DNA of 64,000 nt. It comes from Candidatus Lumbricidiphila eiseniae. Lineage in GTDB: Bacteria; Actinomycetota; Actinomycetes; Actinomycetales; Microbacteriaceae. The notes below the pieces were generated by a model. That model searched no databases. It worked only from the letters and a program-made list of their open reading frames with translations, and was not told the origin of the DNA. The stretch is from the NCBI GenBank assembly GCA_002529645.1, contig NAEP01000023.1:183240-247239 (forward strand), read 5' to 3'. Of this stretch, positions 9,910 to 61,480 are shown piece after piece. Made by a program: the position numbers and the translations under genes. Position 1 is the stretch's first letter. Every line of letters begins with the position of its first letter.

Positions 9910-9999
9910 GGTGTTGTCCGTGTGGTTGCTGTTGTTGTTGCGGGCACGGTCGGCTCCGTCGACCATCGCGGGTGTTGTCCGTGTGGTTGCTGTTGTTGT
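9910..9999. repeat. Two-copy repeat-spacer unit: 29-bp identical repeats, 32-bp spacer
   Basis: The 29-bp sequence beginning GGTGTTGTCCGTGTGGTTGC is present at 9910-9938 and again, identical, at 9971-9999; the 32 bp between them (9939-9970) is unrelated. Period 61. The second copy runs into the 3' end of an IS30 remnant. The 29/32 geometry equals that of type I-E CRISPR units. No cas gene or leader is visible. The repeat is not shared with the other mini-arrays in the window. Confidence 0.85.
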
Positions 10000-10016
10000 G
10001 GGCCCGTAATTCTTCA

Positions 10017-10397
10017 AGTCTGAAGTGCAGCACTGTGGTGGCGTGATTGTGTGTGTGGTGGTGGTGGATTTCTGCTGGTGTTGCCCGGCCGAAGTGTTTT
10101 TGGGGTTGGTTGTTGATCTCCTGGAACTCTTCCTCGGTTATGGTTCGGAAGTCGGTGCGTGTCGGTAGGTAGCGTCGGATCCGACCGTTCCGGCGCTCGT
10201 TAGTTCCTATCCCAACCTGTTCCAGACCTAATCTCCCGCGACACCGTGGACGCAGACTGACCCAACACCGCAGCGATCTGCCGAACAGAGCGCCCCGCAC
10301 CCTTCTTGATCTGAACCCGCTCAACCTCACAACACATGACCGTCATGTATACCCATAGAAACGCAACCCTTGACTCAGTGGGCATGAACATCGCCAC
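10017..10397 (-). pseudogene. IS30-family transposase remnant, internally deleted and frameshifted
   Basis: Read on the minus strand, the 5' part encodes an IS30 helix-turn-helix (RSVRQIAAVLGQSASTVSREI, residues shown in part) and stops after GTGWDRN. The C-terminal IS30 part follows in another frame (NGRIRRYLPTRTDF, then FGRATPAEIHHHH). The whole catalytic core between them is missing, so about two thirds of the gene was lost and the ends fused. The upstream segment around 10330-10400 recurs near 30545-30625 and 34484-34575, marking other remnants of the same element. Confidence 0.8.
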
Positions 10398-10404
10398 GTG
10401 CTGC

Positions 10405-10493
10405 GCTTCTACCTTATGAATACGGACACGACTATGGATGACTGTTGGCTACAACATTGTCATTAGCTTCTACCTTATGAATACGGGCACGGC
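10405..10493. repeat. Two-copy repeat-spacer unit upstream of rpsD: 28-bp repeats, 33-bp spacer
   Basis: A 28-bp sequence beginning GCTTCTACCTTATGAATACG lies at 10405-10432 and 10466-10493, with two or three base differences; the 33 bp between them are unrelated. Period 61. The first copy overlaps the outer end of the IS30 remnant, so the repeat appears copied from IS30-end DNA. The second copy abuts the presumed rpsD promoter. Confidence 0.85.
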
Positions 10494-10520
10494 TGACGGG
10501 TGCGAGGAGCGTGCTACGAT
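10493..10520 (+). promoter_or_regulatory. Candidate promoter of rpsD
   Basis: A CTGACG hexamer at 10493-10498 is separated by 16 bp from TACGAT at 10515-10520, a fair match to a housekeeping sigma promoter. It precedes a leader of about 150 bp that contains no gene. In many bacteria the rpsD leader is the target for autoregulation by S4, but no specific structure was worked out here. Confidence 0.4.
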
Positions 10521-10672
10521 GGCCGTTGGCCTGAACAGATTTTCGCGAGCGGCTGCGCGGATTCTCTGGTGAGTGGTGTGACCTGTAGCCGGTCTGCCCG
10601 TGGCGCACCCCTCTGACAGAACCGGCGTACGCGTGTGCGCCCCCAACCGTGTGAGAATCCGAAAGGACATTC

Positions 10673-11296
10673 GTGTCAAACCAGTCACGCAGCAAGACCC
10701 GCCTTTCTCGGGCGCTGGGCATTCCGCTCACTCCGAAGTCCGCCCGCTACCTAGAGAAGCGCCCCTACGCGCCGGGTGAGCACGGTCGAACCAAGCGCAG
10801 AACCGACTCCGACTATGCGGTGCGGTTGCGCGAAAAGCAGCGCCTGCGTGCTCAGTATGGTATTCGCGAGAAGCAGCTGCGCATCGCGTACAACGAGGCG
10901 AAGCGAACCGAAGGTCAGACCGGTGAGAACCTCGTTGAGCTGCTTGAGATGCGTCTGGATGCGATCGTGCTTCGCTCGGGCTTTGCCCGCACCATTGCAC
11001 AGGCTCGTCAGTTTGTCGTGCACCGCCACATTCTTGTTGACGGCCAGCTCGTTGACCGCCCCTCGTTCCGGGTGAAACCAGGACAGCTCGTGCACGTCAA
11101 GGAACGCAGCGAAGGCACCGATCCGTTCCAGGTTGCGGCGGCGGGCGGGCACGTTGACCTGCTGCCGCCGGTTCCCGGGTACCTCGATGTTGACATCAGT
11201 CGGCTGCAGACCCGTCTTGTGCGTCGCCCCAAGCGCGCCGAGGTTCCGGTGACCTGTGAGGTTCAGCTCGTTGTGGAATACTACGCCGCTCGCTGA
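10673..11296 (+). CDS. rpsD: 30S ribosomal protein S4
   Basis: S4 is a primary 16S rRNA-binding protein of the small subunit. The 207-residue product has the S4 N-terminal domain (starting MSNQSRSKTRLSRALG, with RPYAPGEHG) and the S4 RNA-binding fold at about residues 95-160 (LEMRLDAIVLRSGFARTIAQ, HRHILVDGQLVDRPSF). No zinc-binding Cys motif is present near the N-terminus, so it is the zinc-independent type. GTG start with GAAAGGA eight bases upstream. It stands alone rather than in the alpha operon, the usual arrangement in this family. Confidence 0.97.
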   Translation: MSNQSRSKTRLSRALGIPLTPKSARYLEKRPYAPGEHGRTKRRTDSDYAVRLREKQRLRAQYGIREKQLRIAYNEAKRTEGQTGENLVELLEMRLDAIVLRSGFARTIAQARQFVVHRHILVDGQLVDRPSFRVKPGQLVHVKERSEGTDPFQVAAAGGHVDLLPPVPGYLDVDISRLQTRLVRRPKRAEVPVTCEVQLVVEYYAAR

Positions 11297-11520
11297 TCCC
11301 TGATGGCCTCGACGCACAGCGCTCGGGTGGCATTTCCCGGCCTGTGGCCCGGACGTGTCCACCTGCGCTGCGCCGGGTCATACCTGCGTGGACGTGAAGG
11401 CTGAGGCTTTGGTGTGCCATCCGGCGGAACAATCACCTCCTCCGGGTCAGCCGGATAGACTGGCAGTCGCGAGTTCCGTGCGGTGCGTGGTCTGCGCATC
11501 CACCGATCAGGGAGGTAGAC

Positions 11521-11709
11521 GTGAAGGGTTTCTTCTGGTTAGCTGTCGGGGTGGTGGCAGGATTCTTCGTCGCGCACAGGGTTAATCGAACCGCCCAGGG
11601 TCGCGAGTTTTTCGACCAGGTCAACAGCAAGGCGCGTGCGTTCGGCACCGCCATCGCGGAGGGCTACCACGCCCGTGATGCTGAGCTCCGCGAGGCATCC
11701 GGCAAATAG
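11521..11709 (+). CDS. Small conserved membrane protein between rpsD and alaS
   Basis: A 62-residue protein with one N-terminal membrane segment (FFWLAVGVVAGFFVAH) and a charged cytoplasmic helix containing TAQGREFFDQVNSKARAFG. Short proteins of this layout occur between rpsD and alaS in related actinobacteria; the function is unknown. GTG start with an excellent GGGAGG site seven bases upstream. The 225 bp between rpsD and this gene contain no other recognisable element. Confidence 0.75.
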   Translation: MKGFFWLAVGVVAGFFVAHRVNRTAQGREFFDQVNSKARAFGTAIAEGYHARDAELREASGK

Positions 11710-11797
11710 CGAGATTGCGCGAGGCATCCAATAGGCAGCGAGTCCGCGCGATCCACCCCCATCCGTTCCGATTCGCGAAGGCTTTCACTCCCACCTC

Positions 11798-14473
11798 ATG
11801 CTTACCGCCGATATTCGTCAACGCTGGCTCGACTTTTTTGCCTCTCGTGGGCACGCGGTCGTTCCCTCCGCTTCCCTGGTGTCGGATGACCCGACCCTCA
11901 TGTTCACCGTCGCCGGTATGGTGCCCTTCGTGCCGTACCTCACGGGACTTGTGCCCGCACCATACCCGCGAGCGACGAGCGTGCAGAAGTGCATTCGCAC
12001 AAACGACATCGAAGAAGTCGGTAAAACTCCACGACACGGCACCTTCTTCCAGATGAACGGCAATTTCTCGTTCGGTGATTATTTCAAAGAGGGGGCGATC
12101 ACGTACGCGTGGGAGCTGCTGACCAGTGCCGAAAAGGACGGCGGTTATGGTTTTGCACAGAGCGATCTCTGGGTGACTGTCTATCGGGACGATGACGAGG
12201 CAATTGCCCTGTGGAAGCGGATTGCGGGTCTTTCGGACGAGCGCATTCAGCGCCTCGACAAAGACACGAACTACTGGAGCACCGGCCAACCCGGGCCGGC
12301 CGGCCCCTGTTCAGAGATCTTCTTCGACCGCGGCCCGGCCTACGGACAGGAGGGCGGCCCCGCCACCGATGACGACCGGTACGTGGAAATTTGGAATCTT
12401 GTTTTTATGCAGTACCTCATTGACAGCGTGACGAGCAAGACCGACTTTCGTATTGTCGGCGAGTTGCCCACAAAAAACATCGACACCGGCATGGGCTTAG
12501 AGCGAGTCGCGTTCATTAAGCAGGGCGTCGATAACATGTATGAGATTGATCAGGTGCGGCCCGTGCTTGACCGGGCCGCCGAACTCTCCGGACGTCGCTA
12601 CGGAGCCCATCACGACGATGATGTCCGCATGCGGGTGATCGCCGATCACGTGCGTTCTAGCCTCATGCTCATGGGCGACGGCGTCAGCCCGTCGAACGAG
12701 GGGCGCGGGTATATTTTGCGGCGACTGTTGCGCCGGAGCATCCGAGCTATGCGGCTGCTGGGGGTGGATGCCCCGACCTTTACCGAATTGTTCGCGGCAT
12801 CTCGTGACGCCATGAAGACGGCCTACCCGGAGGTGGCGACCGGTTACGCAACCATTGAGCAACTCGCTCTCGGTGAGGAAGAGACATTCCTGCGCACCCT
12901 CGCGGCGGGAACCACGATTCTTGACACGGCGGTCGTGGGCACAAAGAAATCGGGTGCCGCACAGCTACCCGGCGACACTGCGTTTCTGCTGCACGACACC
13001 TACGGTTTTCCCATTGAGCTCACCCTCGAAATGGCCGAGGAGGCCGGGCTCAGCGTGGACCGGACCACCTTCGACACCCTCATGTCAGCGCAGCGTAACC
13101 GTGCCAAGGTCGACGCCAAGTCGAAGAAAAAGGTACTCGCTGACCTCTCGGTGTATGCCAGCCTCCGCGCGAAGGGCGAGACGGTCTTCACGGGGTACAC
13201 CGAGTTAGAGACATCCTCGACGATCTTGGGGTTGCTCGTGAACGGACAGCCCGCTCAGCGTGCGGTGGCGGGAGAGGTCGCGGAGGTGATTCTTGCGGAG
13301 ACCGCACTCTATGCGGAGTCAGGCGGCCAGGCAGCCGACCACGGCGTGATCGTTGGCGACGGTTATGAACTTCAGGTGCTTGATGTGCAGAAACCGGTGA
13401 AGGGCCTTATCAGCCACACCGTCACGGTCACTCGTGGCGAACTCGGCGTCGGTGTCGGCGCGACGAGTGTCGTAGACCTCGCCTACCGCCGCGGTGCCAA
13501 CCAGGCCCACTCCGGCACCCACCTCATCCATGCCGCGCTCCGACAGGTGCTGGGCCCGCGGGCGCACCAGGCGGGTTCCTACAACCGAGCCGGATACCTC
13601 CGCCTTGACTACGGCTGGAACAGCGCTCTGTCGCCCGAGGTGCGGAGCGAGATTGAAGAGGTTGCCAATAACGCGATTCGCGACAATCTTGAGGTCACCA
13701 TTCGGGAGATGGCGCTCGATAAGGCCAAGGAGCTCGGCGCGATGGCGCTCTTCGGTGAGAAGTACAGCAACCTCGTGCGGGTGGTTGATATCGGTGGCCC
13801 GTGGTCGCGGGAGCTCTGCGCCGGCACTCACGTTGGGCGCAGCACCGAGGTCGGAATAATCAGCATTGTTGGAGAATCGTCGGTCGGGGCATCCACTCGT
13901 CGGGTGGAATCACTGGTGGGTGCCGATGCCTTCCGGCGGTTCGCCGCCGAACGGGCGCTCGTGTCGGAGCTCACCAACACCCTCAAAGTTGCGCCCGAGC
14001 AACTCACCCAGCGGGTCGGAGAGCTTATCGCGAGCCTGAAAGCGGCGGAAAAACGCATCCACACGATGGAGGCCAGAGCCCTCGGAGACCGCGTACCCGC
14101 GCTTGCTGCGGGTGCGAAGCGGGTTGGTGATGTGCTGCTTGTTGTCGAAAACCTCGGCGCGTTGCCATCGGGTGATGAACTGCGCGTGTTGGTCACCCGG
14201 GTGCGTGAAAAACTGGGGGATGTCGCCTCCGTCGTTGCTCTCGCCGCTGAGGTCGCCGACAAACCGCTCGTGACCGTTGCCGTGTCGGCGGCGGCCCGCG
14301 ACCTCGGCCACAATTCGGGAGTGCTCGCAAAAACTGTCGCCGGGATTCTTGGCGGCGGCGGCGGCGGCAAACCTGAACTTGCGCAGGGTGGCGGCACCGA
14401 TATCACCGCGATCCCCGCGGCACTCGATGCCGTGCGCCACCAGGTTGCCGCACACCAGGGAAGCAGCCGATAA
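11798..14473 (+). CDS. alaS: Alanine--tRNA ligase
   Basis: Charges tRNA-Ala and edits mischarged Ser or Gly. Class II catalytic core at residues 1-240 (KCIRTNDIEEVGKTPRHGTF, NGNFSFGDYFKEGAITYAWE in part), the tRNA-recognition region, then the editing domain at about 555-700 with HSGTHLIHAAL and the matching CAGTHV zinc ligands, and a C-terminal DHHA1/oligomerisation region with a Gly-rich GGGGGGKPELAQGGG motif. At 891 residues it is full length. The ATG at 11798 gives the family start (xLTADIRQRWLDFF). It is followed at once by ruvX (3-bp gap). Confidence 0.97.
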   Translation: MLTADIRQRWLDFFASRGHAVVPSASLVSDDPTLMFTVAGMVPFVPYLTGLVPAPYPRATSVQKCIRTNDIEEVGKTPRHGTFFQMNGNFSFGDYFKEGAITYAWELLTSAEKDGGYGFAQSDLWVTVYRDDDEAIALWKRIAGLSDERIQRLDKDTNYWSTGQPGPAGPCSEIFFDRGPAYGQEGGPATDDDRYVEIWNLVFMQYLIDSVTSKTDFRIVGELPTKNIDTGMGLERVAFIKQGVDNMYEIDQVRPVLDRAAELSGRRYGAHHDDDVRMRVIADHVRSSLMLMGDGVSPSNEGRGYILRRLLRRSIRAMRLLGVDAPTFTELFAASRDAMKTAYPEVATGYATIEQLALGEEETFLRTLAAGTTILDTAVVGTKKSGAAQLPGDTAFLLHDTYGFPIELTLEMAEEAGLSVDRTTFDTLMSAQRNRAKVDAKSKKKVLADLSVYASLRAKGETVFTGYTELETSSTILGLLVNGQPAQRAVAGEVAEVILAETALYAESGGQAADHGVIVGDGYELQVLDVQKPVKGLISHTVTVTRGELGVGVGATSVVDLAYRRGANQAHSGTHLIHAALRQVLGPRAHQAGSYNRAGYLRLDYGWNSALSPEVRSEIEEVANNAIRDNLEVTIREMALDKAKELGAMALFGEKYSNLVRVVDIGGPWSRELCAGTHVGRSTEVGIISIVGESSVGASTRRVESLVGADAFRRFAAERALVSELTNTLKVAPEQLTQRVGELIASLKAAEKRIHTMEARALGDRVPALAAGAKRVGDVLLVVENLGALPSGDELRVLVTRVREKLGDVASVVALAAEVADKPLVTVAVSAAARDLGHNSGVLAKTVAGILGGGGGGKPELAQGGGTDITAIPAALDAVRHQVAAHQGSSR

Positions 14474-14476
14474 CCC

Positions 14477-16338: not shown

Positions 16339-16348
16339 TGCGGGGATC

Positions 16349-18193: not shown

Positions 18194-18574
18194 ATGGAGG
18201 AATTACCCTCGCTGCCCGTTCTTATTTTTGACGGCGATTGTGGGTTTTGTACAGCGTCGGTGAACTGGTTGCTCACTCATCTCCCGCACGAGTTCCGCGC
18301 TATTCCGTTTCAGTGGTATCCGTACGGCGAACACGGACTGACCGATGAGGACGTGGCAGCGAAGGTATGGTTCGTGGATGCCTCCGGCGACCCCCTCGGC
18401 GGACACCTTGCGGTCGGCGCGCTTCTTTCTGCCCAACCCGGCGGCTGGAAACTGCTCTCGTACCTTATTCGCATCCCGCCGACTCGCTGGCTCGCCGCGC
18501 TCGGATACTGGTTCGTGGCACGCAATCGTTACCGTCTGCCCGGCGGCACCCCCGCGTGTGCAGTGCCACGCTGA
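18194..18574 (+). CDS. DCC-family (DUF393) thiol-disulfide oxidoreductase-like protein
   Basis: A 126-residue protein with the family hallmark FDGDCGFCTASVNWL at residues 12-26, giving the DxDCxxC motif, and a second block around the segment YLIRIPPTRWLAALGYWFVA. Such proteins are thioredoxin-like and usually of unknown partner. Its final codons (LPGGTPACAVPR) lie in a DNA segment that is repeated 61 bp further on (see 18541-18630), so the C-terminus coincides with a repeat unit. ATG start with a GGAG-like site. Confidence 0.82.
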   Translation: MEELPSLPVLIFDGDCGFCTASVNWLLTHLPHEFRAIPFQWYPYGEHGLTDEDVAAKVWFVDASGDPLGGHLAVGALLSAQPGGWKLLSYLIRIPPTRWLAALGYWFVARNRYRLPGGTPACAVPR

Positions 18575-18630
18575 ATGATTCCGCGGGTGTCTTTGCCGTG
18601 CCGGCGGCGCTCCCGCGTGCGCCGTGCCGC
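18541..18630. repeat. Two-copy repeat-spacer unit at the 3' end of the DCC gene
   Basis: A 29-bp segment beginning CGGCGGCACCCCCGCGTGTG (18541-18569, inside the coding end) recurs with five mismatches at 18602-18630. Thirty-two unrelated bases lie between them. Period 61. The segment resembles the stem part of type I-E CRISPR repeats (CCCCGCGTGTG). The differences between copies suggest an older event than the identical pairs elsewhere. Confidence 0.65.
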
Positions 18631-28644: not shown

Positions 28645-29810
28645 TCATCCCGGTCTCAGTTGTAGCGTTCTTCCTGCTGGCAGGGCTAACACCGGTGCTG
28701 TTGCATTGTCTCTGATCGCTCGCGATGCCACGAGGATTTCGATACCAAAAAGATGCCCCTCTGTGTCGAAGTCAAGGTTCACCTGAGATTCGTTATTTGG
28801 GGTGTCAATAAACGAAACTTGCTGAACAGCCTCGCCCGGCCCCATCTCCTGCACCACAAAGATGTAGGCTGCAGCCCAGGTCACGGCCCAGGTGTCGGGG
28901 TCGTTGAATCCCGAGCCGTTGATCTGCGCGGCGGCCTGATTGTGCGGGGCCGTTCGCACGGTTTCGGGATCGCGGCGGCCCTCGTCGAGCACGTGCGCGA
29001 CCACGTCGATCCACTCGTCAGTGTCCTCCTTCGACCACATCTCGCCCGCCTCGGGCCTGAAGGGCTCGGGTACGATCCACGGTTCGTGTGAGCTCCACCA
29101 GGCATCGACGCCAAAGTCGGTGATGCGGTTGCTTGCGTCCAGGGTCGACAGTCCCGTGTCGGTGGCCCACTCCGCCAGCGAATAACGGGTCATCTCCAGG
29201 CGGGGCATCCGCTTGCCGGGGAAAGAAATGGTCACGCCGGGAATGCTCAGGAGCCGTTTTTCCATGTAATTGTTGGCACGCACCGACAGGTCAGCGGCCT
29301 CGCGCAGCCCCTCTGTGCCCATCGCACGCAGCCAGGAGTACGCCTTCACGAGCTGCTGCACATCTCCCATGAACTCGCGCACCCGACCGACGCTTGCCTC
29401 GGGTTCGATGAGCACGTACCGCTCGCCGGTAGTCACGATGCGCGGGCCGGGGAGGAACCTTGCGAGTTCCTCCGAGCAGCCGTACGCACCAACCGAGGGA
29501 CCGTTGCCACCCTTGGGCACCCCGAAGGTTTTGTGCAGCATGTACATGCACGCGTCGAATCCCAGCTCACGCGCGCACAGCCGAGTCTTGATATGCGGGC
29601 CGATTAGAAAAAGCGTCTGTTCCCAGCTCACGCGCGCGCAGCCGAGTCAGCAGTCCCGGCAGGGAACAGCAGACCCAGCAGTCCCAGCTCACGCGCGCGC
29701 AGCCGAGTCATGACGCCGTTGAAGTTGGCGTTGTCGTAGAAGGCCAGCGCACCAACCCCGTGCACCGCGTCGATGAACTCCGTAATGTGCGGGTTATAGA
29801 TGCCCATCTG
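28645..29810 (-). pseudogene. gcvPB: Truncated gcvPB, interrupted by a repeat-spacer insertion and fused to a DUF2283 end
   Basis: Glycine decarboxylase subunit 2 (PLP enzyme) remnant. On the minus strand, 29810-29690 encodes IYNPHITEFIDAVHGVGALA then DNANFNGVMTRLRARELG. At that point 122 extra bp (two spacers plus two extra repeat copies) intervene and the frame meets a stop. The remaining frame (28645-29631) resumes with RELGFDACMYMLHKTFGVPKGG, the PLP lysine being in HKTF. The first half of the subunit is missing. Near 28876 the GcvPB sequence (DPDTWAVTW) passes directly into a DUF2283-like domain (EMGPGEAVQQV, VNLDFDTEGHLFGIEI), so the 3' end was replaced by fusion. Not expected to be functional. 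Confidence 0.85.
29560..29709. repeat. Three-copy repeat-spacer array inside gcvPB: 28-bp repeats, two 33-bp spacers
   Basis: The repeat begins TCCCAGCTCACGCGCGC and lies at 29560-29587, 29621-29648 and 29682-29709; one base differs in the first copy. The two 33-bp spacers (29588-29620 and 29649-29681) are different from each other and from flanking DNA. Both periods are exactly 61. On the minus strand the repeat is GcvPB coding sequence (TRLRARELG), so the target is a normal gene, not a pre-existing CRISPR. This is the cleanest example of the dispersed family. Confidence 0.92.
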
Positions 29811-30456: not shown

Positions 30457-30543
30457 CCCACCCCGTGTTTAGGGTAGAAGCGCCCGAGCGCCTCTTCGGC
30501 AACCACATTCGATAGTCCCACCCCGCGTTTAGGCTGGAAGCGC
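30457..30543. repeat. Two-copy repeat-spacer unit, period 60
   Basis: A 27-bp sequence beginning CCCACCCCGTGTTTAGGGTA at 30457-30483 recurs at 30517-30543 with three mismatches; 33 unrelated bases separate the copies. The second copy runs into the IS30 end fragment at 30545, and its end (GGCTGGAAGCGC) resembles the outer part of that element, so the target was again IS30-associated DNA. Confidence 0.75.
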
Positions 30544-30544
30544 G

Positions 30545-30783: not shown

Positions 30784-30840
30784 TTTCTGTCAAGCCGGAA
30801 ATGCCACCAACCTCATGGCCGGGTACAACTAGTCGGTTAA

Positions 30841-30929
30841 CGGAGCCCCGCGTCTTTAGGCTCAGATTCTGACGCCAATTACTTTCTGTCCCGTCATTCA
30901 GCGGAGCCCCGTGTGTCTGGGCTCAGACA
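30841..30929. repeat. Two-copy repeat-spacer unit at the 3' end of the oxidoreductase gene
   Basis: A segment beginning CGGAGCCCCG lies at 30841 and 30902 (period 61), matching at 22 of 26 positions. The second copy covers the stop codon of the minus-strand oxidoreductase and contains a GAGCCC/GGGCTC stem. About 33 bp separate the copies. The gene keeps its complete end, as expected if insertion duplicated the target on the outer side. Confidence 0.7.
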
Positions 30930-33336: not shown

Positions 33337-33681
33337 ATGAACGCCAGCGCGAGCTTGCAGCAACCGTCGTTGCCGAAGCCCGGAGCATTTCCGGTGCTTG
33401 TCGAGGCCAAGAGCACGGGGGATTTTACCAATACGAAAAAGCGACGCAAGGAGGAAGCGCAGAAGATTGCACTGCTAAAGGCCAAGTATGGCGAGTCAAT
33501 CGGTTTCAACTTGTTTCTCTGTGGTCACTTCGACACGGGGAATCTTGCCCCACCGCGCGTGAGAGAGACAGAGAGGAAGCGTGGTCACTTCGACGCGGGG
33601 AATCTTGGCTACGAAGCGGCTGAGGGAATCAACTGGGTTTGGGAGCATCGCATTGATGATTTGAGGTTCCTCCTTGGCTGA
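33337..33681 (+). pseudogene. XamI-like restriction endonuclease, C-terminal fragment with a 60-bp in-frame insertion
   Basis: The 114-residue frame matches the C-terminal part of the XamI restriction endonuclease family: FPVLVEAKSTGDFTNTKKR with the catalytic-type E-x-K, then YEAAEGINWVWEHRIDDL. Inside it, GHFDTGNL is repeated as GHFDAGNL 20 residues later because a 27-bp repeat flanks a 33-bp spacer; 60 bp keeps the frame. The N-terminal two thirds are missing and the upstream neighbour is an IS481 remnant. Activity is very unlikely. Confidence 0.7.
33521..33607. repeat. Two-copy repeat-spacer unit inside the XamI-like gene: 27-bp repeats, 33-bp spacer
   Basis: The repeat begins GTGGTCACTTCGACACGGGG at 33521-33547 and recurs with one mismatch at 33581-33607; 33 unrelated bases lie between. 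Period 60. The single-copy family sequence elsewhere in XamI proteins shows one GHFD/GYFD motif, so the second copy here is an added duplication. Confidence 0.88.
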
Positions 33682-34198: not shown

Positions 34199-34575
34199 AC
34201 TCCCAGTGCCCGAACACGGACCGGTCGTTGATGTGTACCGGGCGCTCATGGATAGACACCCGGAACCGGATATACGGTCTGAATGCACCCGCAGGCCCTG
34301 AAAATTTTACGGCGTTGTCGGTATGCACGGGGTAAGTTTCTGCACAATGGGCTTACTCATGCGCAGACCGGTGTTGTCGGCGCGCGCGGGGCAGGTGGTC
34401 ACGGCGGGAAGAGGGCCAGGACGCGCTCAGGTGTTGTCGGTGTGCGCGGGGTAGGCGCTACCACAACTGGTGGTGGCGTTACATGACCGTCACGTATACC
34501 CATTAGAAACGCAACCCTTGACTCAGTGAACACGAACAACACCACGTGTTGTGCTTCCACCTTGAACACGGGACA
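34190..34575 (-). pseudogene. IS30-family transposase remnant, split by a repeat-spacer array
   Basis: On the minus strand, 34310-34190 gives RPYIRFRVSIHERPVHINDR then SVFGHWESD, the middle of IS30 transposases just before the catalytic core. The 5' region of the element appears at 34575-34484 (GGTATACGTGACGGTCATG). Between them lies the three-copy array 34311-34455, so the transposase region appears to have been a target. The 36 bp before aroQ are outside the element. Confidence 0.65.
34311..34455. repeat. Three-copy repeat-spacer array: 26-bp repeats, 33- and 34-bp spacers
   Basis: A 26-bp repeat of the form GG(C/T)GTTGTCGG followed by a GTGCGCGGGG-like core lies at 34311-34336, 34370-34395 and 34430-34455. 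Spacers are 33 and 34 bp and unrelated to each other. The CGCGGGG core is like that of type I-E CRISPR repeats. The array sits within the IS30 remnant. Confidence 0.8.
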
Positions 34576-35081: not shown

Positions 35082-35225
35082 GTGGCGTGGCCGGGCGCGC
35101 GGGCCTCACGCAAACACCAAGGGCTTCGTCGGGGATGTGGCGTGGCCGGGCTGCGCGGGCCTCACCGCCGCGTGTGCAGCGGCTTGACGGACGGCGCAGG
35201 TGCGGCTGAACTGCGCGGAACTCAC
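35082..35225. repeat. Three-copy repeat-spacer array after aroQ, uneven periods
   Basis: GTGGCGTGGCCGGGC followed by GCGCGGGCCTCAC is present at 35082-35109 and 35137-35165; a diverged third copy ending CTGCGCGGAACTCAC is at 35197-35225. Spacers are 27 and 31 bp, periods about 56 and 60, so small deletions are likely. The spacer sequences are unrelated. Confidence 0.65.
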
Positions 35226-35259: not shown

Positions 35260-35348
35260 GTGGTGTCCGCATGTAGGTTGGAGCAGTATGCTGTCTCGGC
35301 TTGCGCATAGCTTTGTGAATGTGGTGTCCGCATGTAGGTTGGAGCAGT
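35260..35348. repeat. Two-copy repeat-spacer unit at the PAP2 gene start: identical 28-bp repeats, 33-bp spacer
   Basis: The 28 bp beginning GTGGTGTCCGCATGTAGGTT are identical at 35260-35287 and 35321-35348; 33 unrelated bases lie between. Period 61. The second copy contains the ribosome site (GGTTGGAG) and the first two bases of the GTG start of the PAP2 gene, so the unit is a duplication of that gene's start region with an insert between. Confidence 0.92.
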
Positions 35349-36015: not shown

Positions 36016-36021
36016 CGCAGA

Positions 36022-36111
36022 CTCGGCTCTCCTGCGCCGGGGCGTAGGCAGCCCCGCGGTACCAAACCCGGTGCGCCCTGCTGCCTCAGCTCTCCTGCGC
36101 CGGGGCACAGG
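36022..36111. repeat. Two-copy repeat-spacer unit after the PAP2 gene, period 63
   Basis: CTC(G/A)GCTCTCCTGCGCCGGGGC plus a few more bases occurs at 36022-36048 and 36085-36111 (24 of 27 positions match). The 36 bp between are unrelated and the first copy starts seven bases after the PAP2 stop. The period is slightly longer than at other loci. Confidence 0.65.
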
Positions 36112-36187
36112 ACTGATGCTCCCCATTGGCGCTGTCGCGGGCGAGCGAATAAACTCGACCGACCTCTAATGAATGGAACACACTCGC

Positions 36188-36751
36188 ATGGCAAGCACCG
36201 CAGATATCAAGAATGGGGTTGTCCTCTCAATCGATGGGCAACTGTGGAGCGTCATTGAGTTCCAGCACGTCAAGCCCGGTAAGGGTGGTGCCTTTGTGCG
36301 CACAAAACTGAAGAATGTTGTGAGCGGCAAGGTCGTTGATCGCACCTATAACGCGGGTGCCAAGATTGACATCGAAAACGTGGATCGGCGCGACTTCACC
36401 TACCTCTACAACGATGGCGACGGCTACGTGTTCATGGATCAGGTCGACTACGACCAGGTCACGGTTCCCGCCGCGGTTGTCGGCGAGGCGAAGAACTTCA
36501 TGCTCGAAAACCAGGCAGTCACCATCGCACTCAACAACGGTGTGCCGCTGTATGTCGATCTGCCCGCGTCGGTCGTGCTCGAGATCACGTACACCGAACC
36601 CGGTTTGCAGGGCGATCGTTCCACCGGCGGTACCAAGTCCGCGACGGTGGAGACCGGCTACGAAATCCAGGTACCGCTGTTCTTGGAAACCGGCACGAAG
36701 GTCAAGGTCGACACGCGCACGGGCGATTACCTCGGTCGCGTGAACGACTAG
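36188..36751 (+). CDS. efp: Elongation factor P
   Basis: Relieves ribosome stalling at polyproline. The 187-residue product shows three beta domains; [19 protein letters not shown] holds the loop Lys that enters the peptidyl-transferase centre (the loop is of the actinobacterial type without an obvious EpmA site), and the C-terminus has [19 protein letters not shown] then [16 protein letters not shown]. The ATG at 36188 gives the usual [10 protein letters not shown] start; the longer frame is not supported. The stop overlaps nusB. Confidence 0.96.
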
Positions 36752-37161
36752 TGAGTGCACGCAGTAAGGCGCGCAAACGAGCGCTCGATCTGCTCTACTC
36801 GGCAGAGCTGCGGGATGTCCCCGTACAGCAGATGCTCGAGGCGGAGGCGGAGCGAGCGGCGGGGGAACCGGAACGGCAGGCATCCTGGCTCTACGCTCGT
36901 GAGATCGTGGACGGCTATCTCGACCACAGGGACACCATTGACGAACTCATCAGCTATCACGCGCACGACTGGGCGCTGGAGCGGATGCCGGCCGTTGACC
37001 GGGCGCTGCTGCGGATCGGAACGTGGGAGATTGTGTACAACGAACGGGTGCCCGACGCCGTGGCCATCGCCGAGGCCGTGGAACTTGCGACAACTCTCTC
37101 AACCGCGGACTCCGCTGGGTTTGTCAACGGTGTGCTCGCGGCGATCTCGCACGAGGCTTAG
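36751..37161 (+). CDS. nusB: Transcription antitermination factor NusB
   Basis: RNA-binding helical protein that joins NusE on boxA sequences in rRNA leaders. The 136-residue product starts SARSKARKRALDLLYSAELR and ends with AIAEAVELATTLSTADSAGF and VNGVLAAI, typical NusB signatures. GTG start shares one base with the efp stop. The 148 bp to glgP contain a short GC-rich hairpin (GCTGGGG...CCCCAGC at about 37265-37286). Confidence 0.95.
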   Translation: MSARSKARKRALDLLYSAELRDVPVQQMLEAEAERAAGEPERQASWLYAREIVDGYLDHRDTIDELISYHAHDWALERMPAVDRALLRIGTWEIVYNERVPDAVAIAEAVELATTLSTADSAGFVNGVLAAISHEA

Positions 37162-46035: not shown

Positions 46036-46892
46036 ACCATCTATCGGTTCCGAAAACGTACAAACTGTTTATCGGTGGGGCTTTTCCGCGCAGCGAGTCG
46101 GGCCGTGTCTATCGGGTACACAGTGCTCGGGGCATTTTTTTGGCCAATGCGGCCCTCGCATCACGCAAGGATGCTCGGGATGCCGTTGTGTCCGCGCGAG
46201 CGGCGTTCGCCGGTTGGGCGGGAGCAACCGGGTACAACCGGGGGCAGATTCTTTATCGAATTGCCGAGTTGCTCGAAGGGCGTCGGGCCCAGTTCGTGGC
46301 GGAGATTCAGGATGCGACGGGGGTAACGACGGTTGAGGCATCCGCCGAAGTTGACGAGGCCATTAACCGCTGGATTTGGTACGCGGGATGGACCGATAAA
46401 TATGCTCAGGTGGCCGGTAACGCCAACCCTGTTGCGGGGCCGTACTTTAATATTTCGGTGCCGGAACCGATGGGAGTTGTTGCCATCGCTGCGCCGCAGC
46501 GTTCCGCGTTACTCGGTCTCGTATCGGTCATTGCCCCGGCGCTTGTCTCCGGTAATACCGTCGTCGTCGTGGCGAGTGAGATGCATCCGCTGTCGGCCAT
46601 CAGTTTTGCTGAAATTTTAGCAACCAGCGATGTCCCGAAGGGCGTCGTGAATATCTTGACCGGATCACTGTCCGAGATTGCACCGTGGCTGGCCGGTCAT
46701 GCTGATGTGAACGCGCTGGATCTCACCGGAGCGGGCGTGATCGACTGGGTTGATCTGGAGATAACCGCGGCACAAACCCTGAAGCGGGTATTGCGTCCGG
46801 ACAGCGGCACCGGTAGCGCGGTGCCGGCGCTCGGGCGCATCACCGCGCTCACCGAGACGAAAACCGTGTGGCACTCGAAGAGCCTGTCGTAG
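46032..46892 (+). CDS. Short aldehyde dehydrogenase-like protein lacking the catalytic Cys
   Basis: A 286-residue relative of aldehyde dehydrogenases that covers the N-terminal cofactor domain (YKLFIGGAFPRSESGRVYRV; ISVPEPMGVVAIAAPQRSALL) and then jumps to a short tail. The catalytic Cys and the Glu region are absent. Companion genes of this length are common next to the full aldehyde dehydrogenase in actinobacterial deoC operons, so it is probably natural, perhaps a structural partner, and not a truncation. The last three codons and stop lie in a repeat unit that recurs 61 bp downstream. Confidence 0.8.
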   Translation: MNHLSVPKTYKLFIGGAFPRSESGRVYRVHSARGIFLANAALASRKDARDAVVSARAAFAGWAGATGYNRGQILYRIAELLEGRRAQFVAEIQDATGVTTVEASAEVDEAINRWIWYAGWTDKYAQVAGNANPVAGPYFNISVPEPMGVVAIAAPQRSALLGLVSVIAPALVSGNTVVVVASEMHPLSAISFAEILATSDVPKGVVNILTGSLSEIAPWLAGHADVNALDLTGAGVIDWVDLEITAAQTLKRVLRPDSGTGSAVPALGRITALTETKTVWHSKSLS

Positions 46893-46968
46893 CGTGTGGG
46901 GAGCCAGCGTTGTCCTGGCCCTCATCAGCGCCAGCGCTGTCAGCCTGTCGTAGCGGGTGGGAACTCAG
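46881..46968. repeat. Two-copy repeat-spacer unit covering the stop codon of the short dehydrogenase gene
   Basis: AGCCTGTCGTAGCG followed by a GTGGG(G/A)A-like part is found at 46881-46907 and 46942-46968 (23 of 27 matches), with 34 unrelated bases between; period 61. The TAG in copy one is the stop codon. The 250 bp from here to the helicase gene contain no further recognisable feature. Confidence 0.75.
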
Positions 46969-47218
46969 TTCACCGCCTTAATTCGACTCGTGGAGCATCG
47001 GCGGGGGTAGCTGACCGTGTTCAAGAATTTCTGAGCTAGAATATACCCGCACTACCAGGTTCCGCCGTTGACCGTCCATGTGAGTTTCGCTCGTGTGATG
47101 CCGGCTCGGGGGCCAGCCGCTTCGCAGTCGTTGCGGTTACTCGCGTGTTTTGCGAGCAGGGGGATGGTTGGTGCGGTCGGTGCCGCTGAGCTCCGGCCTC
47201 GACGAATACTGGAGGGCA

Positions 47219-49339: not shown

Positions 49340-49428
49340 GGTCATCCCGTTGTCTGAGTGCTTCGTGTTTATCCATTCCGATGATCACAAGTCTCGTCTG
49401 AATCATTCAGTTGTCTGGGTGCTTCCTG
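49340..49428. repeat. Two-copy degraded repeat-spacer unit after the helicase gene, period 61
   Basis: TCATCCCGTTGTCTGAGTGC at 49341 matches TCATTCAGTTGTCTGGGTGC at 49402, the similarity running about 26 bp with four to five differences. About 33 unrelated bases separate them. It is one of the weaker members of the family. The rest of the gap to 49575 shows nothing. Confidence 0.6.
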
Positions 49429-49574
49429 ATGGGACAGCGACAGGATGGGCTCCACCGTTACCAGCTCAGACGGTCACCGCGGTCAACGGAAAACAAAGCT
49501 ATTGATCTTCTGTTGTGGCTGCTGCCGTCCTAAACCGTACACCCTCGTCTGTCCGGTCGTTATCTGACTGAGTT

Positions 49575-53215: not shown

Positions 53216-53228
53216 GGAAGGTTGTGTC

Positions 53229-54113
53229 GTGAGAGTTGTGATGACAGGAGCTCGTGGCCTCATTGGCAGTTGGGCTGCAGATGAACTCGTGCGGGCGGGG
53301 CATGAGGTTGTGTCGGTTATCCGTGAGAAGAGTGAGGTTGCGGAGGGGCTGCTTCTTGCGCAAGAGGAGGTCATCGCCGATGCCGGTGACCCGCGAGTGC
53401 TCAAACGCGTGTGTGATGGTGCGGACGGACTCGTTCATCTGGCAGCAATTCCATCACCGGTTGGGTCCACAGCACGGGAACTGATCGAAGCAAATACGGT
53501 CACGACCGTAAACGTCTTGGAGGCGGCGGGAGAGGGTGGCATCACCGCTGCGGTTATTGCCTCTAGCGCCTCTGTGTTGGGCATGGCGTGGTGTAAAGAT
53601 CTGATGGCTCCGTGCTATCTCCCGGTTGATGAACACCATCCGTTGCGACCAACGGAGGGGTATGCACTGAGCAAAGAAGCAGATGAGGCGGCTGCTCGCA
53701 TGGCATCGCGGCGGTGGGGAATGTCGATCTTTGCTCTCCGCTTTCCGTTTACACACACGCGTGATGTTCTCCTTGCCCGAGCGACTGATCCCAGCGCAGA
53801 GCAGGAATTTTCGCTCGCCAGGGAACTCTGGGGCTATCTGGATGTCCGCGACGCCGCACAGGCTATTCGTCTCTGCCTCGACGTGGCCAGCGATGAAAGC
53901 ACGAGGGAATGCACAGTGCTGAACATTATGGCCGATGACGTGCTTATCAATGAGGAACTGGCCGTGCTCATGAAGCAATGGCACCCCAGTGTGGGAGATA
54001 TCCCTGGAACAATTCGGGGTGCCTACGATGTCTCGCGTGCCGCCGCCAGGATTGGTTTTCGTGCCGAGCATCTGCTGCGCGGGGAACCTGGAAGAGCCTC
54101 CCGCGAGAGATGA
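53229..54113 (+). CDS. NAD-dependent epimerase/dehydratase family protein
   Basis: Extended short-chain dehydrogenase of 294 residues. Rossmann motif VMTGARGLIGSWAADEL at the start, LVHLAAIPSPVG, and the catalytic YALSK in PTEGYALSKEADEAAA. The fold and context suggest a uronate/aldose dehydrogenase feeding the sugar-acid pathway. The last codons (FRAEHLLRGEPG) are the first copy of a repeat that recurs twice downstream, so the C-terminal ten residues may derive from rearranged DNA. Starts 13 bp after the dehydratase gene. Confidence 0.87.
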   Translation: MRVVMTGARGLIGSWAADELVRAGHEVVSVIREKSEVAEGLLLAQEEVIADAGDPRVLKRVCDGADGLVHLAAIPSPVGSTARELIEANTVTTVNVLEAAGEGGITAAVIASSASVLGMAWCKDLMAPCYLPVDEHHPLRPTEGYALSKEADEAAARMASRRWGMSIFALRFPFTHTRDVLLARATDPSAEQEFSLARELWGYLDVRDAAQAIRLCLDVASDESTRECTVLNIMADDVLINEELAVLMKQWHPSVGDIPGTIRGAYDVSRAAARIGFRAEHLLRGEPGRASRER

Positions 54114-54211
54114 CCTGCCGCCCCCGAGCATTTGCTGCGCGGGGAACCTGGTCTGAACGAGGCATCCCGTAAACACCGGAGTTGCGAGCATCTGCTGCGC
54201 GGGAAACCTGG
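54065..54211. CRISPR. Three-copy CRISPR-like array at the epimerase gene end: 27-bp repeats, 33-bp spacers
   Basis: The repeat starts CGAGCATCTGCTGCGCGGGG and ends AACCTGG; copies at 54065-54091, 54125-54151 and 54185-54211 differ by one base each. Spacers 54092-54124 and 54152-54184 are both 33 bp and unrelated. Copy one encodes the epimerase C-terminus. The core CTGCGCGGGGAAC is close to that of type I-E repeats. No cas genes adjacent. Confidence 0.75.
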
Positions 54212-54414
54212 ATAGTCACATGCGTGCTGTGGCGCTTTCATAAACCCGAGCAAACGACCTGCAAACCACCGCCCACCAAAGAGCCACTCGTGTTCAAGGT
54301 GGAAGCACAACCCGGGGTGTTGTTCGTGTCCACGGTGTCGCGGGAGATTCGCCGGAACAGGTGGGTGCTGCTGAACCAGAACGAGTCGCACCCGCCTGCT
54401 TTGGAATGTTCGCT

Positions 54415-54456: not shown

Positions 54457-54529
54457 CGCCAACCACGTCGCACCCGCCTGCTTCGGGATGTTCGGTTACA
54501 TATCTGGTCCGGTGACCACAGCACAGTAC

Positions 54530-54594
54530 CGGGCAGAACGGGCAGAACGGGCAGAACGGGCAGAACGGGCAGAACGGGCAGTACCGGGCAGAAC
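54530..54594. repeat. 9-bp microsatellite (GGGCAGAAC)
   Basis: Five to six uninterrupted GGGCAGAAC units, framed by two CAGTACC variants. Both strands stay open across it (ERA repeats on plus, CPF repeats on minus), which explains long but meaningless frames here. Likely hypervariable by slippage. Confidence 0.85.
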
Positions 54595-54908: not shown

Positions 54909-55117
54909 CCAGCATCTGTTGCGTGAGGGAACCTGTCTCACATCCTCCTCCGGGATATCCCTCTCTCCCCAGCATCTGTTGCATGAGGGAACCTGGTGTG
55001 TCACGGGTGTGACACCCCAGGCCCCTTGCCCAGCATCTGTTGCATGAGGGAACCTGGACCGCTTTGACGATGGATGTGACCCGATGACCCCAGCATCTGT
55101 TGCGTGAGGGAACCTGG
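54909..55117. CRISPR. Four-copy CRISPR-like array: 27-28-bp repeats, 33-34-bp spacers
   Basis: The repeat starts CCAGCATCTGTTGCGTGAGG and ends GAACCTGG; copies begin at 54909, 54969, 55030 and 55090 (periods 60, 61, 60) and differ only at one or two bases. The three spacers are unrelated. This is the largest array in the window. Its repeat is similar to that of the array at 54065 (shared CAGCATCTG-TG and GGGAACCTGG parts), unlike the other arrays. The 185 bp from here to the binding-protein gene must hold its promoter. Confidence 0.8.
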
Positions 55118-55301
55118 GTGCAGTCGGGTGATGCCTGCTCGATCATGCTGAAGGTGATCACCGATTCATAACGAATATGCATGGCCAGGGGTGAAACCGC
55201 CTATTGCGTCAATAACCAATTGGCCGTAGTCTGACACCATCACCTACACCGGCGTAGGCACCTTGCTGGTGTGCCGGGAACCAGATGCAAGGGAGAACCG
55301 C

Positions 55302-56615: not shown

Positions 56616-56760
56616 CTCCGTTCTGTGTCCTGCGGAACTGAACGAATGCGGCAGCGGCTTCGCGGGCTGTTGCTCCGTTCTGTGTCGTGCGGAGCCGAAC
56701 CGGTCTTGACCCCGACCGTTGCCCGGGTCTTGCTCCGTTCTGCACTGTGTAGGACCAAAA
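56616..56760. repeat. Three-copy repeat-spacer array between binding-protein and permease genes
   Basis: A segment beginning CTCCGTTCTGTGTCCTGCGG starts at 56616, 56673 and 56733 (periods 57 and 60). Copies one and two match at about 24 of 28 positions; the third diverges after CTCCGTTCTG. Intervening 29 and 32 bp are unrelated. The array fills nearly all of the 164-bp gap inside the transporter operon. Confidence 0.75.
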
Positions 56761-56779
56761 TTTCGTTGAGGAGTTCCAC

Positions 56780-58602: not shown

Positions 58603-58707
58603 ATGGGACATCACGATGCATTCAACCAATAACACGCAGCTGTGTGCTGATGATAATGACCCCGGGCCGACAGGTACGGTGGATACTCTTTGCGAGAAAG
58701 GTTAGAC

Positions 58708-59685
58708 ATGTTTGATATCGCAGAAATACTACCACCGGGTAAGGTGGGTTCGTCCCTCTGGCCCCTTATGAAACAGGCAGGAATCACGCAGGTTGTCGGT
58801 ACTTTTACCCCTGCTGATGCGCTTGGAATCGGTGAGAAACCGTGGGATTATCTGCCCCTGGTGAGACTCAAGAAACGGTACGAAGATTACGGATTCACCG
58901 TTTCGGTCATCGAAGACCGTCCGCCATTGAATCGGGCCAAGCGAGGTTTGCCTGGGCGTGATGAGGAAATCAACGAGGTAAAAATCCTCATCGAGAATAT
59001 GGGTCGGCTGAATATTCCGGTCTGGTGTTACGAGTGGATGGCGGATTTCAACTGGATGCGCACTTCAGTCGCAATCCCTTCTCGGGGTGGGTCAACGGTG
59101 AGTGGGTTTGATTTCGAGCTAGTAAAAAATGCTCCACCGACAGAGTATGGACCTCTTGAAGCGGAAACCCTGTGGGAGAGCCTCGAATATTTTCTGGACC
59201 AGATCATTCCTGTGGCTGAGAAGTGGGGAGTAACGCTGGCGATGCATCCGGATGATCCTCCGCTATCCCCACTTCGAGGAGTTGCGCGAATTATGAGTTC
59301 ACTTGAAGGATACGATCGACTTCTGAGAATATCGGCTAGCCCGATGAACGCCATCACGCTCTGCCAGGGCAATTTTGCTCTTATGACTGATAATCTACCG
59401 GCGGTCATTCGCACATACGGCAGTGTGGGAAAGATCGCGTTTGTTCACCTGCGAGACGTTCGTGGCACCAAGTTTAAATTCGAAGAGACATGGCACGATG
59501 ACGGTCCCACCGATATGTACGCCTGTTTCCAAGCATATAAAGACATCGGTTTTGGCGGTGTGATGCGCCCAGATCACGTTCCAAACCTGTATGGGGAAGA
59601 GTCCGAAACTGCGGGATATGCGACACTCGGTCGACTTTTTGCGGTCGGTTACCTGCGAGGTCTGAAGCATGCCGTCCTCAGGTGA
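58708..59685 (+). CDS. uxuA: Mannonate dehydratase (UxuA type)
   Basis: Converts D-mannonate to 2-keto-3-deoxygluconate in glucuronate breakdown. The TIM-barrel protein of 325 residues has PADALGIGEKPWDYLPLVRL, VWCYEWMADFNWMRT, LAMHPDDPPLSPLRGVARI and FVHLRDVRGTKFKFEETWHD, then GFGGVMRPDHVPNLYGE, covering the metal-binding His/Cys/Asp residues of UxuA (Cys in NAITLCQGNF). It is somewhat shorter than the E. coli enzyme (about 390), as in many Gram-positives. ATG 58708 follows a GAAAGG site. Confidence 0.93.
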   Translation: MFDIAEILPPGKVGSSLWPLMKQAGITQVVGTFTPADALGIGEKPWDYLPLVRLKKRYEDYGFTVSVIEDRPPLNRAKRGLPGRDEEINEVKILIENMGRLNIPVWCYEWMADFNWMRTSVAIPSRGGSTVSGFDFELVKNAPPTEYGPLEAETLWESLEYFLDQIIPVAEKWGVTLAMHPDDPPLSPLRGVARIMSSLEGYDRLLRISASPMNAITLCQGNFALMTDNLPAVIRTYGSVGKIAFVHLRDVRGTKFKFEETWHDDGPTDMYACFQAYKDIGFGGVMRPDHVPNLYGEESETAGYATLGRLFAVGYLRGLKHAVLR

Positions 59686-60427
59686 AGCGAGATGCTCGCT
59701 CGGAACGGTCGTGGTCACGGGTGGTGGAGGCGGTATTGGTGCAGCAGTAAGTAAGTTTGTTGCCCGGGCAGGATACGCTGTGATCGCTGTTGATATTGCC
59801 CCGCTTGGTTTGGATAAATTGACGGCTGATGCTAAGTCTGAGGGATTAAATATTTGCACCGTTGTTGGGGACACTTCGGAAGAACAGGTGAATCATGATG
59901 TGTTCACCGCTGCAGCTGACAACGGAATGCTGCACGGTGCTGTCCTTTGCGCGGGTGCAACAATCCATAAGCCATTCATGGAAACGTCACTCGACAATTT
60001 CATGTTCACATTTCGAGTGAACTTACTGTCAACTTTCCTCGGTCTTCGAGAAGCGGGACTTGTTCTCGCATCTCAGGGTAAGGGAGGATCACTCATCGCA
60101 GTCTCTTCAATTAATGCGATGCGTCCGCTGCCAGAGCAAGCGAGCTATAGCGCTGCAAAGGCGGGTATTGAATCGCTCGTCCGTAGTGCTTCCGAAGACC
60201 TCGGTCCGTCCCGTGTTCGAGTAAATTCGCTCGCTCCGGGCGGAGTGAACACTCCGATGAACCCCATTCCTGACCAGCGCAACACGTACGCTCCGCATAT
60301 TGCGCTACGGCGTGCAGCTGAACCCGAAGATATGTGCGGAACCGTAGAGTTTCTTCTCAGTGATAAATCTCGTTATATCACCGGCGCGACCATTGTGGTT
60401 GACGGTGGACTTATGAACCACAGATAG
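59669..60427 (+). CDS. SDR-family oxidoreductase (possible fructuronate/mannonate reductase)
   Basis: A 252-residue short-chain dehydrogenase. Cofactor motif VVVTGGGGGIGAAVSKFVA, catalytic SSINAMRPLPEQASYSAAKA with the Tyr and Lys of YxxxK, and TGATIVVDGGLM at the end. Its start overlaps uxuA by 17 bp. In uronate pathways the step before UxuA is reduction of fructuronate to mannonate; an SDR next to uxuA may do this instead of UxuB. That substrate is inferred from position. Confidence 0.9.
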   Translation: MPSSGEARCSLGTVVVTGGGGGIGAAVSKFVARAGYAVIAVDIAPLGLDKLTADAKSEGLNICTVVGDTSEEQVNHDVFTAAADNGMLHGAVLCAGATIHKPFMETSLDNFMFTFRVNLLSTFLGLREAGLVLASQGKGGSLIAVSSINAMRPLPEQASYSAAKAGIESLVRSASEDLGPSRVRVNSLAPGGVNTPMNPIPDQRNTYAPHIALRRAAEPEDMCGTVEFLLSDKSRYITGATIVVDGGLMNHR

Positions 60428-60493
60428 TAAAAACTGACCTCGCCAGGCAACCACCACTAATGACCTTTTTGGTCGGACAGGTATATAATCATC

Positions 60494-61318
60494 ATGAGAA
60501 TTCAGCCGTTTAGGGACGAGCTTGTCGAACTAACCTCGCAGTGGCAGGGTGATCGCTTTGAGGATGGCCGCCCAAAAGTCCCTGACTCTGTGCTTGAGGA
60601 TTTACAAGAGGCAACAACCGAACAAGTGTGGGCGGTTTTGTGGGACGCTGGTTTCCTGCATCAATACGAGGGAAACTGGCTGGAGACTAACCCGGGAAAA
60701 CCTATCGTCGGGCGGGCGGTGACCTCGCAGTTTGTTCCCAAGCGCCCGGATCTTGATGAGGTGGTGCTGACCGCTGCTGCTCGGGAAGGACTTGTTTTTG
60801 GTCCCGACACCCAGAATTGGCTCGTCGTTGAATCTCTTGTGTCACACGATGTCATGGTCGTTGATCTCTTCGGAAAGATTTACGAGGGAACATTCATAGG
60901 TGACAACCTCGCCACGGCCGTCGCAACGAGAACGGGAGTCGGCGCAGTCATTCACGGTGGTATCCGCGACATGATGGGTATTCGCGAGCTCAAGGCGATC
61001 AATGTGTTCTATCGCGGAGTCGATCCGACTCCGATTCGCCATGTCACTCTTGCCGGCCTGAATATTCCTGTTCGCTTAGGTGCCGCAACGGTTCTGCCCG
61101 GAGATGTCGTGTTTGGAACCCCATCCGGAGTGATCTTCATTCCGCCACACTTGGCCGAGAGAGCTGCATCACTCAGTCGAGAGACACGTCTACGTGACAA
61201 GTTTGGGAAGCAACGGCTGGCAGAACGGACGTACACCAGCGCCGACATTGACGTACCTGAATGGCGATCAGACATCCAAGCCGACTACAACTCCTGGCTT
61301 GCAGACGGTACACAGTAA
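60494..61318 (+). CDS. RraA-family protein (4-hydroxy-4-methyl-2-oxoglutarate aldolase-like)
   Basis: A 274-residue protein with an RraA/HMG aldolase core: DVMVVDLFGKIYEGTFIGDN, LATAVATRTGVGAVIHGGIR and DMMGIRELKAINVFYRGVDP. The metal/substrate segment GxxRD is seen as GGIRD. It has about 50 extra N-terminal residues compared with RraA. In sugar-acid clusters this family often acts as a decarboxylase or aldolase of oxo-acids. Preceded by a short gap with a TATAAT-like stretch near 60481. Confidence 0.88.
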   Translation: MRIQPFRDELVELTSQWQGDRFEDGRPKVPDSVLEDLQEATTEQVWAVLWDAGFLHQYEGNWLETNPGKPIVGRAVTSQFVPKRPDLDEVVLTAAAREGLVFGPDTQNWLVVESLVSHDVMVVDLFGKIYEGTFIGDNLATAVATRTGVGAVIHGGIRDMMGIRELKAINVFYRGVDPTPIRHVTLAGLNIPVRLGAATVLPGDVVFGTPSGVIFIPPHLAERAASLSRETRLRDKFGKQRLAERTYTSADIDVPEWRSDIQADYNSWLADGTQ

Positions 61319-61336
61319 GGTGACGGCGGAGCATCG

Positions 61337-61480
61337 ATCGTGGGTTGCGCGCGCGGCGCATCCTCAAACCCGCCGACTTTGACCGGCTCACCTGCACATC
61401 GTGGGTTGCGCGCGGCGCATCCCGGTCTTGCCGTCGCGGTCTCAAGGAACACGAGATCGTGGGTTGCACGCGGCGCATCC
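61337..61480. repeat. Three-copy repeat-spacer array: 25-27-bp repeats, 34- and 33-bp spacers
   Basis: ATCGTGGGTTGCGCGCGGCG plus CATCC occurs at 61337-61363 (with an extra GC), 61398-61422 and 61456-61480; spacers are 34 and 33 bp and unrelated. A weaker pair, around CTTGTGCCAAGAACC, follows at about 61486 and 61546 (period 60). The remaining bases up to the pfkA start contain a 10-bp tandem (CACGGATAGT twice) and nothing else. Confidence 0.85.

Follow-up and report, generated by a model that had tools for sequence, protein, structure and literature searches.

Stray repeat-spacer units across the genome of Candidatus Lumbricidiphila eiseniae very probably record off-target integration by its own type I-E Cas1-Cas2

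How does a bacterial genome come to carry short repeat-spacer units that have the geometry of an array of clustered regularly interspaced short palindromic repeats (CRISPR) and yet a different repeat at every locus? The question is raised by a 64,000-nucleotide stretch of Candidatus Lumbricidiphila eiseniae (hereafter the window; C1:183240-247239 of a 2.85-Mb genome in 73 contigs), in which an initial annotation described 17 such loci and proposed ectopic integration by Cas1-Cas2. Our sequence analysis supports that proposal through the geometry of the units, the presence of a cas locus, the self-derived spacers and the empty paralogous sites: the stray units very probably arose by off-target integration of mainly self DNA by the genome's own type I-E Cas1-Cas2, although it is from these converging lines that we infer the identity of the enzyme.

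Units were defined as ungapped pairs of 26-mers with at least 22/26 matching bases at a spacing of 57-64. The window holds 20 such pairs and each of 20 order-1 Markov resamples holds none, which rules out a chance origin. Spacings are mostly 60 and 61, the others being 57 (at 56616), 58 (at 61396) and 63 (at 36017). Sixteen of the 17 annotated loci pass this ungapped test; the locus at 35082, whose two clear copies differ by a one-base insertion or deletion and start about 55 bases apart, was left uncounted. Further repeat copies claimed at 34311 and 61337 are visible and decayed, but form no qualifying pair with a neighbour, the first 34311 copy pairing with a copy 119 bases further on. More than one qualifying spacer in a row is found at three window loci (29560, 54064 and 54909). 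Plain tandem duplication is ruled out, as spacers of one and the same locus are unlike each other and have their matches far away in the genome.

Where do the spacers come from? Whole-genome searches with all 70 spacers of our first sample, run in three batches (24, the window's 20, and 26), found a second place in the same genome for at least 45 of them (at least 15/24, 11/20 and at least 19/26, respectively), with matches ranging from 33/33 down to about 88-90%. The first and last of these counts are lower bounds, as is that for the flanking control, because the best 40 of 54-61 candidates were scored. Among flanking 33-mers at least 4/24 have a second match, including a many-copy dispersed element, and among the spacers of the native array 2/24 do, so that the excess in stray spacers is significant against both (Fisher p 9e-5 and p 2e-6, respectively). 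Within the sampled 17% of the genome, a second match was found for 13/70 stray spacers, 23/1000 random 33-mers, 0/67 native spacers and 20/335 flanks, one of the latter being an indexing artefact. Given 13/70 in 17% of the genome, most stray spacers would be self-derived. The spacer search that the initial annotation had called for thus places the sources at distant positions, and the spacers are no local tandem duplicates. At the source, the dinucleotide AA abuts one end in 16/38 units (15/38 before a boundary correction) against a background of 8% (p 1e-8). For comparison, passages of PMC6282206 put at about 40% the share of naive acquisitions in E. coli that stem from the consensus AAG protospacer adjacent motif (PAM). 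A phage origin finds no support in the phage collection, in which neither the 23 native spacers searched, out of 67, nor the 25 stray spacers lacking a self match had any match.

For the anatomy of the units we analysed 81 loci with 95 units. This set was obtained after six tandem-repeat loci (L010 4267, L015 15389, L019 16621, L022 18997, L023 6106 and L254 3001) had been dropped by eye, before spacers and motifs were counted, and it still contains a period-21 tandem repeat (L249 5591) and a near-native array described below. Seventy loci have one unit, nine have two, one has three and one has four. The match between repeat copies steps off after 28 bp at spacing 61 and after 27 bp at spacing 60; because this step-off shifts with the spacing, the insert is constant at about 33 bp and the duplication variable. 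The native array has the same 28+33 geometry as the stray units of spacing 61, those of spacing 60 being 27+33.

The repeats had been described as locus-specific, and they do differ from locus to locus, but a weak CC...GG dyad is common to the pooled loci. With both strands pooled, C occupies positions 8 and 9 in 56-58% against about 30% (z about 7-8, assuming independence), and symmetry gives the same for G at 20 and 21; C is more weakly enriched at positions 11 and 13, where the native repeat also carries C. Similarity to the whole native repeat averages 11.4/28, excluding the near-native array, compared with 10.4 at random sites. A stem with at least five of the six native pairs can form in 31/81 repeats versus 18% of random 28-mers, and one with all six in only 5/81, for which reason the stray units are expected to be mostly unprocessed.

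Does the genome possess the machinery? The type I-E cas locus that the initial annotation had predicted was found on contig C67, with Cas1e, Cas2e and a leader region followed by an array of 28-bp repeats and 67 spacers of 33-34 bp. Beyond the array lie two housekeeping genes and then, on the opposite strand, Cas5, Cas7, Cse2, Cse1 and Cas3; one frame in this effector group matches Cas6e weakly, below the cut-off. A second short array with near-native repeats (24/28; L014 4837, C67 near 61839) lies next to the effector operon, on the side of its 5' end. The leader end of the native array is assigned from the position of cas1-cas2 on that side and from the decayed repeats at the opposite end. 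At the array start (L002 9575-9700), two repeats seem to enclose 49 bp copied from the leader end, a duplication of 77 bp. Both self-matching native spacers are leader-proximal, and none was found among the next 22; one matches a LacI-type regulator gene (32/33, flank GGC) and the other an ABC-transporter ATPase gene (33/33, flank GAA), the two sources being L235 (C4:71863-71893) and L236 (C24:9828-9860). Such spacers fit a continuing capture of self DNA.

Among 60 genomes of the same genus, a convincing Cas1 is found in this genome only. The sole other match in the genus (G020; 24% identity) contains a stop and was treated as spurious. Of 112 columns with a conservation of 90% or more across 91 other Cas1e, the Cas1 in question (L002 8312-9241) differs at 26 and is the second most divergent of the 92 sequences; its catalytic residues are presumably kept, judging by eye. 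This unusual divergence is a lead, not evidence, as to why the lineage is so permissive.

If the units are insertions, sites that never received them should run on without interruption. At 6/81 loci, a paralogous copy in the same genome indeed does so, with one repeat and no spacer, in line with the clean 61-bp gains that had been predicted; three rows in which a locus matched itself were left out of this count. A protein search for strain-level empty sites, made with the epimerase whose gene bears a unit, found nothing closer than 65% besides the window's own.

How widespread is the phenomenon? Stretches sampled outside the window contain the same pairs, as the genome scan proposed in the initial annotation would have it: at spacings of 60-62, 64 pairs occur in the first 473.7 kb of the genome (window included) and 22 in a further 211.7 kb, giving 86 pairs in 685 kb and about 357 (about 360) by extrapolation to the whole genome. 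This total includes two plain coding repeats, L022 18997 and L254 3001, which were dropped later. With 25/26 matching bases, pairs at spacings 60, 61 and 62 number 14, 31 and 6; the remaining spacings, with multiples of three excluded, average 0.02. Several hundred stray insertions in the genome overall are therefore likely. The controls stand far below: 1 pair in 400 kb, sampled as 20 stretches of 18 Cas1-less genomes of the genus, and 5 pairs in 400 kb, two of the five visibly short tandem repeats, sampled as 20 stretches of 14 Cas1e-bearing genomes of the family. Among Cas1 neighbourhoods from other taxa, 80 in number and 1.49 Mb in total, isolated units at spacing 57-65 number 11, and several of these are of the canonical CRISPR kind. 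Nothing of what the initial annotation had named as speaking against ectopic integration was found, with the 59 other genomes of the genus being without a convincing Cas1 and the rate in the genus as low as given above.

Where do the insertions lie? With a simple codon-usage gene predictor and both 60-bp flanks of each locus as the measure, both flanks are coding at 11/81 loci; at 28 only one flank is, and at 42 neither. Random points have two coding flanks in 75% of cases. Sources fall inside predicted genes in 21/26 cases at a genome coding fraction of 0.80, some source stretches having been included because they held a source. Insertions are thus mostly outside genes, and the frequency of sources within genes is about that expected by chance. 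Counting loci wholly within a predicted gene (5/81) is an unfair measure, since an insertion disrupts the open frame on which the predictor depends. We prefer an unbiased capture of DNA followed by selected survival over insertion that itself avoids genes.

Copies of a repeat differ by 0-6 of 28 bases (mean 2.15; 141 transitions and 63 transversions), and in some units the repeat copies are identical and the spacer is identical to its source. As the differences span 0 to 6/28, the insertions seem to be of varied age. Error-prone gap filling or deamination was considered as the origin of the copy differences and rejected, as they have no directional bias (AG 32, CT 31, GA 30 and TC 21 at the 70 single-unit loci).

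Several observations weigh against off-target integration by Cas1-Cas2 as just outlined. A simple clock predicts that divergence between repeat copies and divergence between spacer and source are correlated, and they are not (Spearman 0.15, n=38, p 0.37), in a comparison that rests on small counts and on a spacer search that favours close matches. G is not over-represented at the base that follows AA (AAG 5, AAC 5, AAA 4, AAT 3). No self match was found for 25/70 stray spacers among the candidates scored, and the self-matching leader-proximal spacers in the native array are awkward for a fully active interference. Finally, the 14 same-family genomes carry a Cas1e of about 46-53% identity and do not show the phenomenon, so the presence of Cas1e is not sufficient for it, and a general trait of type I-E actinobacteria is supported neither by the same-family rate nor by the Cas1 neighbourhoods of other taxa.

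The last of these points, together with the indirect identification of the enzyme, leaves some room for another, non-CRISPR integrase or repair process that copies about 33 bp and duplicates 27-28 bp of target. We consider such a process unlikely, as the 28/33 geometry, a dyad like that of the native repeat, the AA beside the source and the sole Cas1 among 60 same-genus genomes all coincide. Could the units instead be remnants of many canonical arrays, dispersed by transposition or duplication, whose repeats have drifted apart? The near-native repeats beside the cas operon do represent a second true array, but the other loci are near background in their similarity to the native repeat, and copies are near-identical within a locus and unrelated between loci, the opposite of what dispersal followed by drift would leave; moreover, the paralogous sequences hold the single repeat as ordinary local sequence, without a spacer, which makes this origin very improbable. 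That the units are selected guides, akin to the CreTA or scaRNA-like ectopic repeats and steering Cascade to host genes, is hardly credible: ectopic degenerate repeats with regulatory roles are known, according to part of PMC9458426, and the stray spacers do match host genes, but the sources lie in genes at the genome coding fraction and are not promoter-specific, few repeats can form the full native stem, and several hundred guides matching over their full length would, if processed, be expected to cause self-cleavage.

How might off-target integration by Cas1-Cas2 have produced this pattern? Cas1-Cas2 would capture pieces of about 33 bp, mainly of self DNA, and integrate them into the chromosome at sites with a weak, dyad-based likeness to the native repeat, duplicating 27-28 bp of the target. 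Self spacers that enter the native array would be purged, being lethal or lost through autoimmunity, and the stray copies would be harmless, as most of their repeats lack the pairs needed for a complete native stem. Insertions in genes would be removed by selection. Repeated insertion at an existing stray repeat may then grow small new arrays; two to four spacers are present at 11/81 loci. The purge by autoimmunity, the harmlessness of the stray copies and the selection against genic insertions are steps that we infer from this pattern. The Cas1-Cas2 of this lineage has probably become a genome-wide, self-copying mutagen, which has scattered several hundred self fragments, seeded small arrays and left a decaying record of capture before selection.

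Table 1. Stray units and arrays of the window, and insertion sites for which an empty paralogous copy exists.
Feature	Location	Structure	Spacer match or empty copy
Stray unit	9910..9998	Spacing 61, copies 28/28	Spacer 9938-9970 matches C2, 97%
Stray unit	10405..10493	Spacing 61, copies 26/28	Spacer 10433-10465 matches C73, 33/33
Stray unit	18540..18628	Spacing 61, copies 24/28	Spacer 18568-18600 matches C24, 28 bases
Stray array	29560..29709	3 repeats, 2 spacers, spacing 61	Spacer 1 no self match; spacer 2 matches C26, 97%
Stray unit	30457..30544	Spacing 60	No self match
Stray unit	30839..30927	Spacing 61, copies 23/28	Spacer matches C13, 91%
Stray unit	33521..33608	Spacing 60	No self match
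Stray array	34311..34457	3 repeats, first decayed; within dispersed element	Spacer 34398-34429 matches C23, 32/32
Uncounted locus of the initial annotation	35082..35165	One-base insertion or deletion, spacing about 55 bp	
Stray unit	35260..35348	Spacing 61, copies 28/28	No self match
Stray unit	36017..36107	Spacing 63	No self match
Stray unit	46881..46969	Spacing 61	Weak self match, C72, 88%
Stray unit	49342..49430	Spacing 61	No self match
Stray array	54064..54212	3 repeats, 2 spacers; epimerase gene 3' end	Spacer 2 matches C2, 97%
Stray array	54909..55116	4 repeats, 3 spacers	Spacer 1 matches C14, 32/32; spacer 2 matches C2, 28 bases; spacer 3 no self match
Stray unit	56616..56700	Spacing 57; directly 3' of solute-binding protein gene	No self match
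Stray unit	61396..61481	Spacing 58; additional, decayed copy at 61337	Spacer matches C8, 97%
Empty site	C15	Two inserts in insertion-sequence copy	Empty copy on C40
Empty site	C30	Insert	Empty copy on C1
Empty site	C1	Insert	Empty copies on C14 and C56
Empty site	C1, L004 7572	Insert	Empty copies on C14 and elsewhere on C1
Empty site	Window 34311 array	Insert	C56 copy: single repeat, no spacer

Other features of the window are a tandem repeat of 9 bp (CGGGCAGAA) at 54530-54592 and, at 63070-64000, where the contig ends, long imperfect repeats of about 370 bp. The region of EF-P and NusB (36187-36899) has 78.6% identity to a Microbacterium record, and homologues of the epimerase carry the names Microbacterium and Leifsonia, which makes Microbacteriaceae the probable family of the host.

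Why does such a record matter? In laboratory work Cas1-Cas2 does not distinguish self from non-self, according to a section of PMC12539621. The capture of self DNA is normally hidden in nature, as a cell that acquires a self spacer either dies or loses the spacer. In this natural genome, captures that escaped such filtering seem to survive at inert sites, and one could read from it the bias in spacer sampling, the preferences for PAM and target, and how new arrays are born. CRISPR adaptation would thereby become a measurable source of mutation, and the question becomes what loosened its specificity in this lineage.

How do the stray units compare with known systems? Casposons and other forms of Cas1-family transposition also combine Cas1-type integration with target duplication; the stray inserts, unlike casposons, are bare 33-bp pieces without element ends or genes, and the duplication is 27-28 bp. 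With a canonical type I-E array they share 28-bp repeats and 33-bp spacers, but their repeat is local and different at each locus, and their spacers are self DNA; a leader common to the units was not found, though no search aimed at one was made. Closest is the off-target spacer integration by E. coli type I-E Cas1-Cas2 that Nivala, Shipman and Church reportedly described in 2018, with target duplication of repeat length; Cas1-Cas2 is said to have been overexpressed, the sites to resemble the native locus, and a few natural candidates to occur in other species. Common to both are spacers outside arrays and a target duplication of the length of a repeat. In contrast to the overexpression in E. 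coli, we deal with a natural genome, in which the pairs reach hundreds by extrapolation, many are decayed, and most are self-derived and outside genes, and some stray loci, unlike the E. coli events, have grown into small arrays. Passages of PMC11788318 and PMC9456107 cite this off-target integration. In the open-licence full-text literature we found no account of hundreds of such events in a natural genome; the scale, the self origin and the decayed record therefore appear to be new, while off-target integration as such was already known from E. coli. Like the CreTA and scaRNA ectopic repeats, the stray loci are units of few repeats outside arrays; those repeats are, in the portion of PMC9458426 that deals with them, degenerate copies of the native repeat beside cas genes, whereas the stray repeats of this genome duplicate unrelated local sequence genome-wide.

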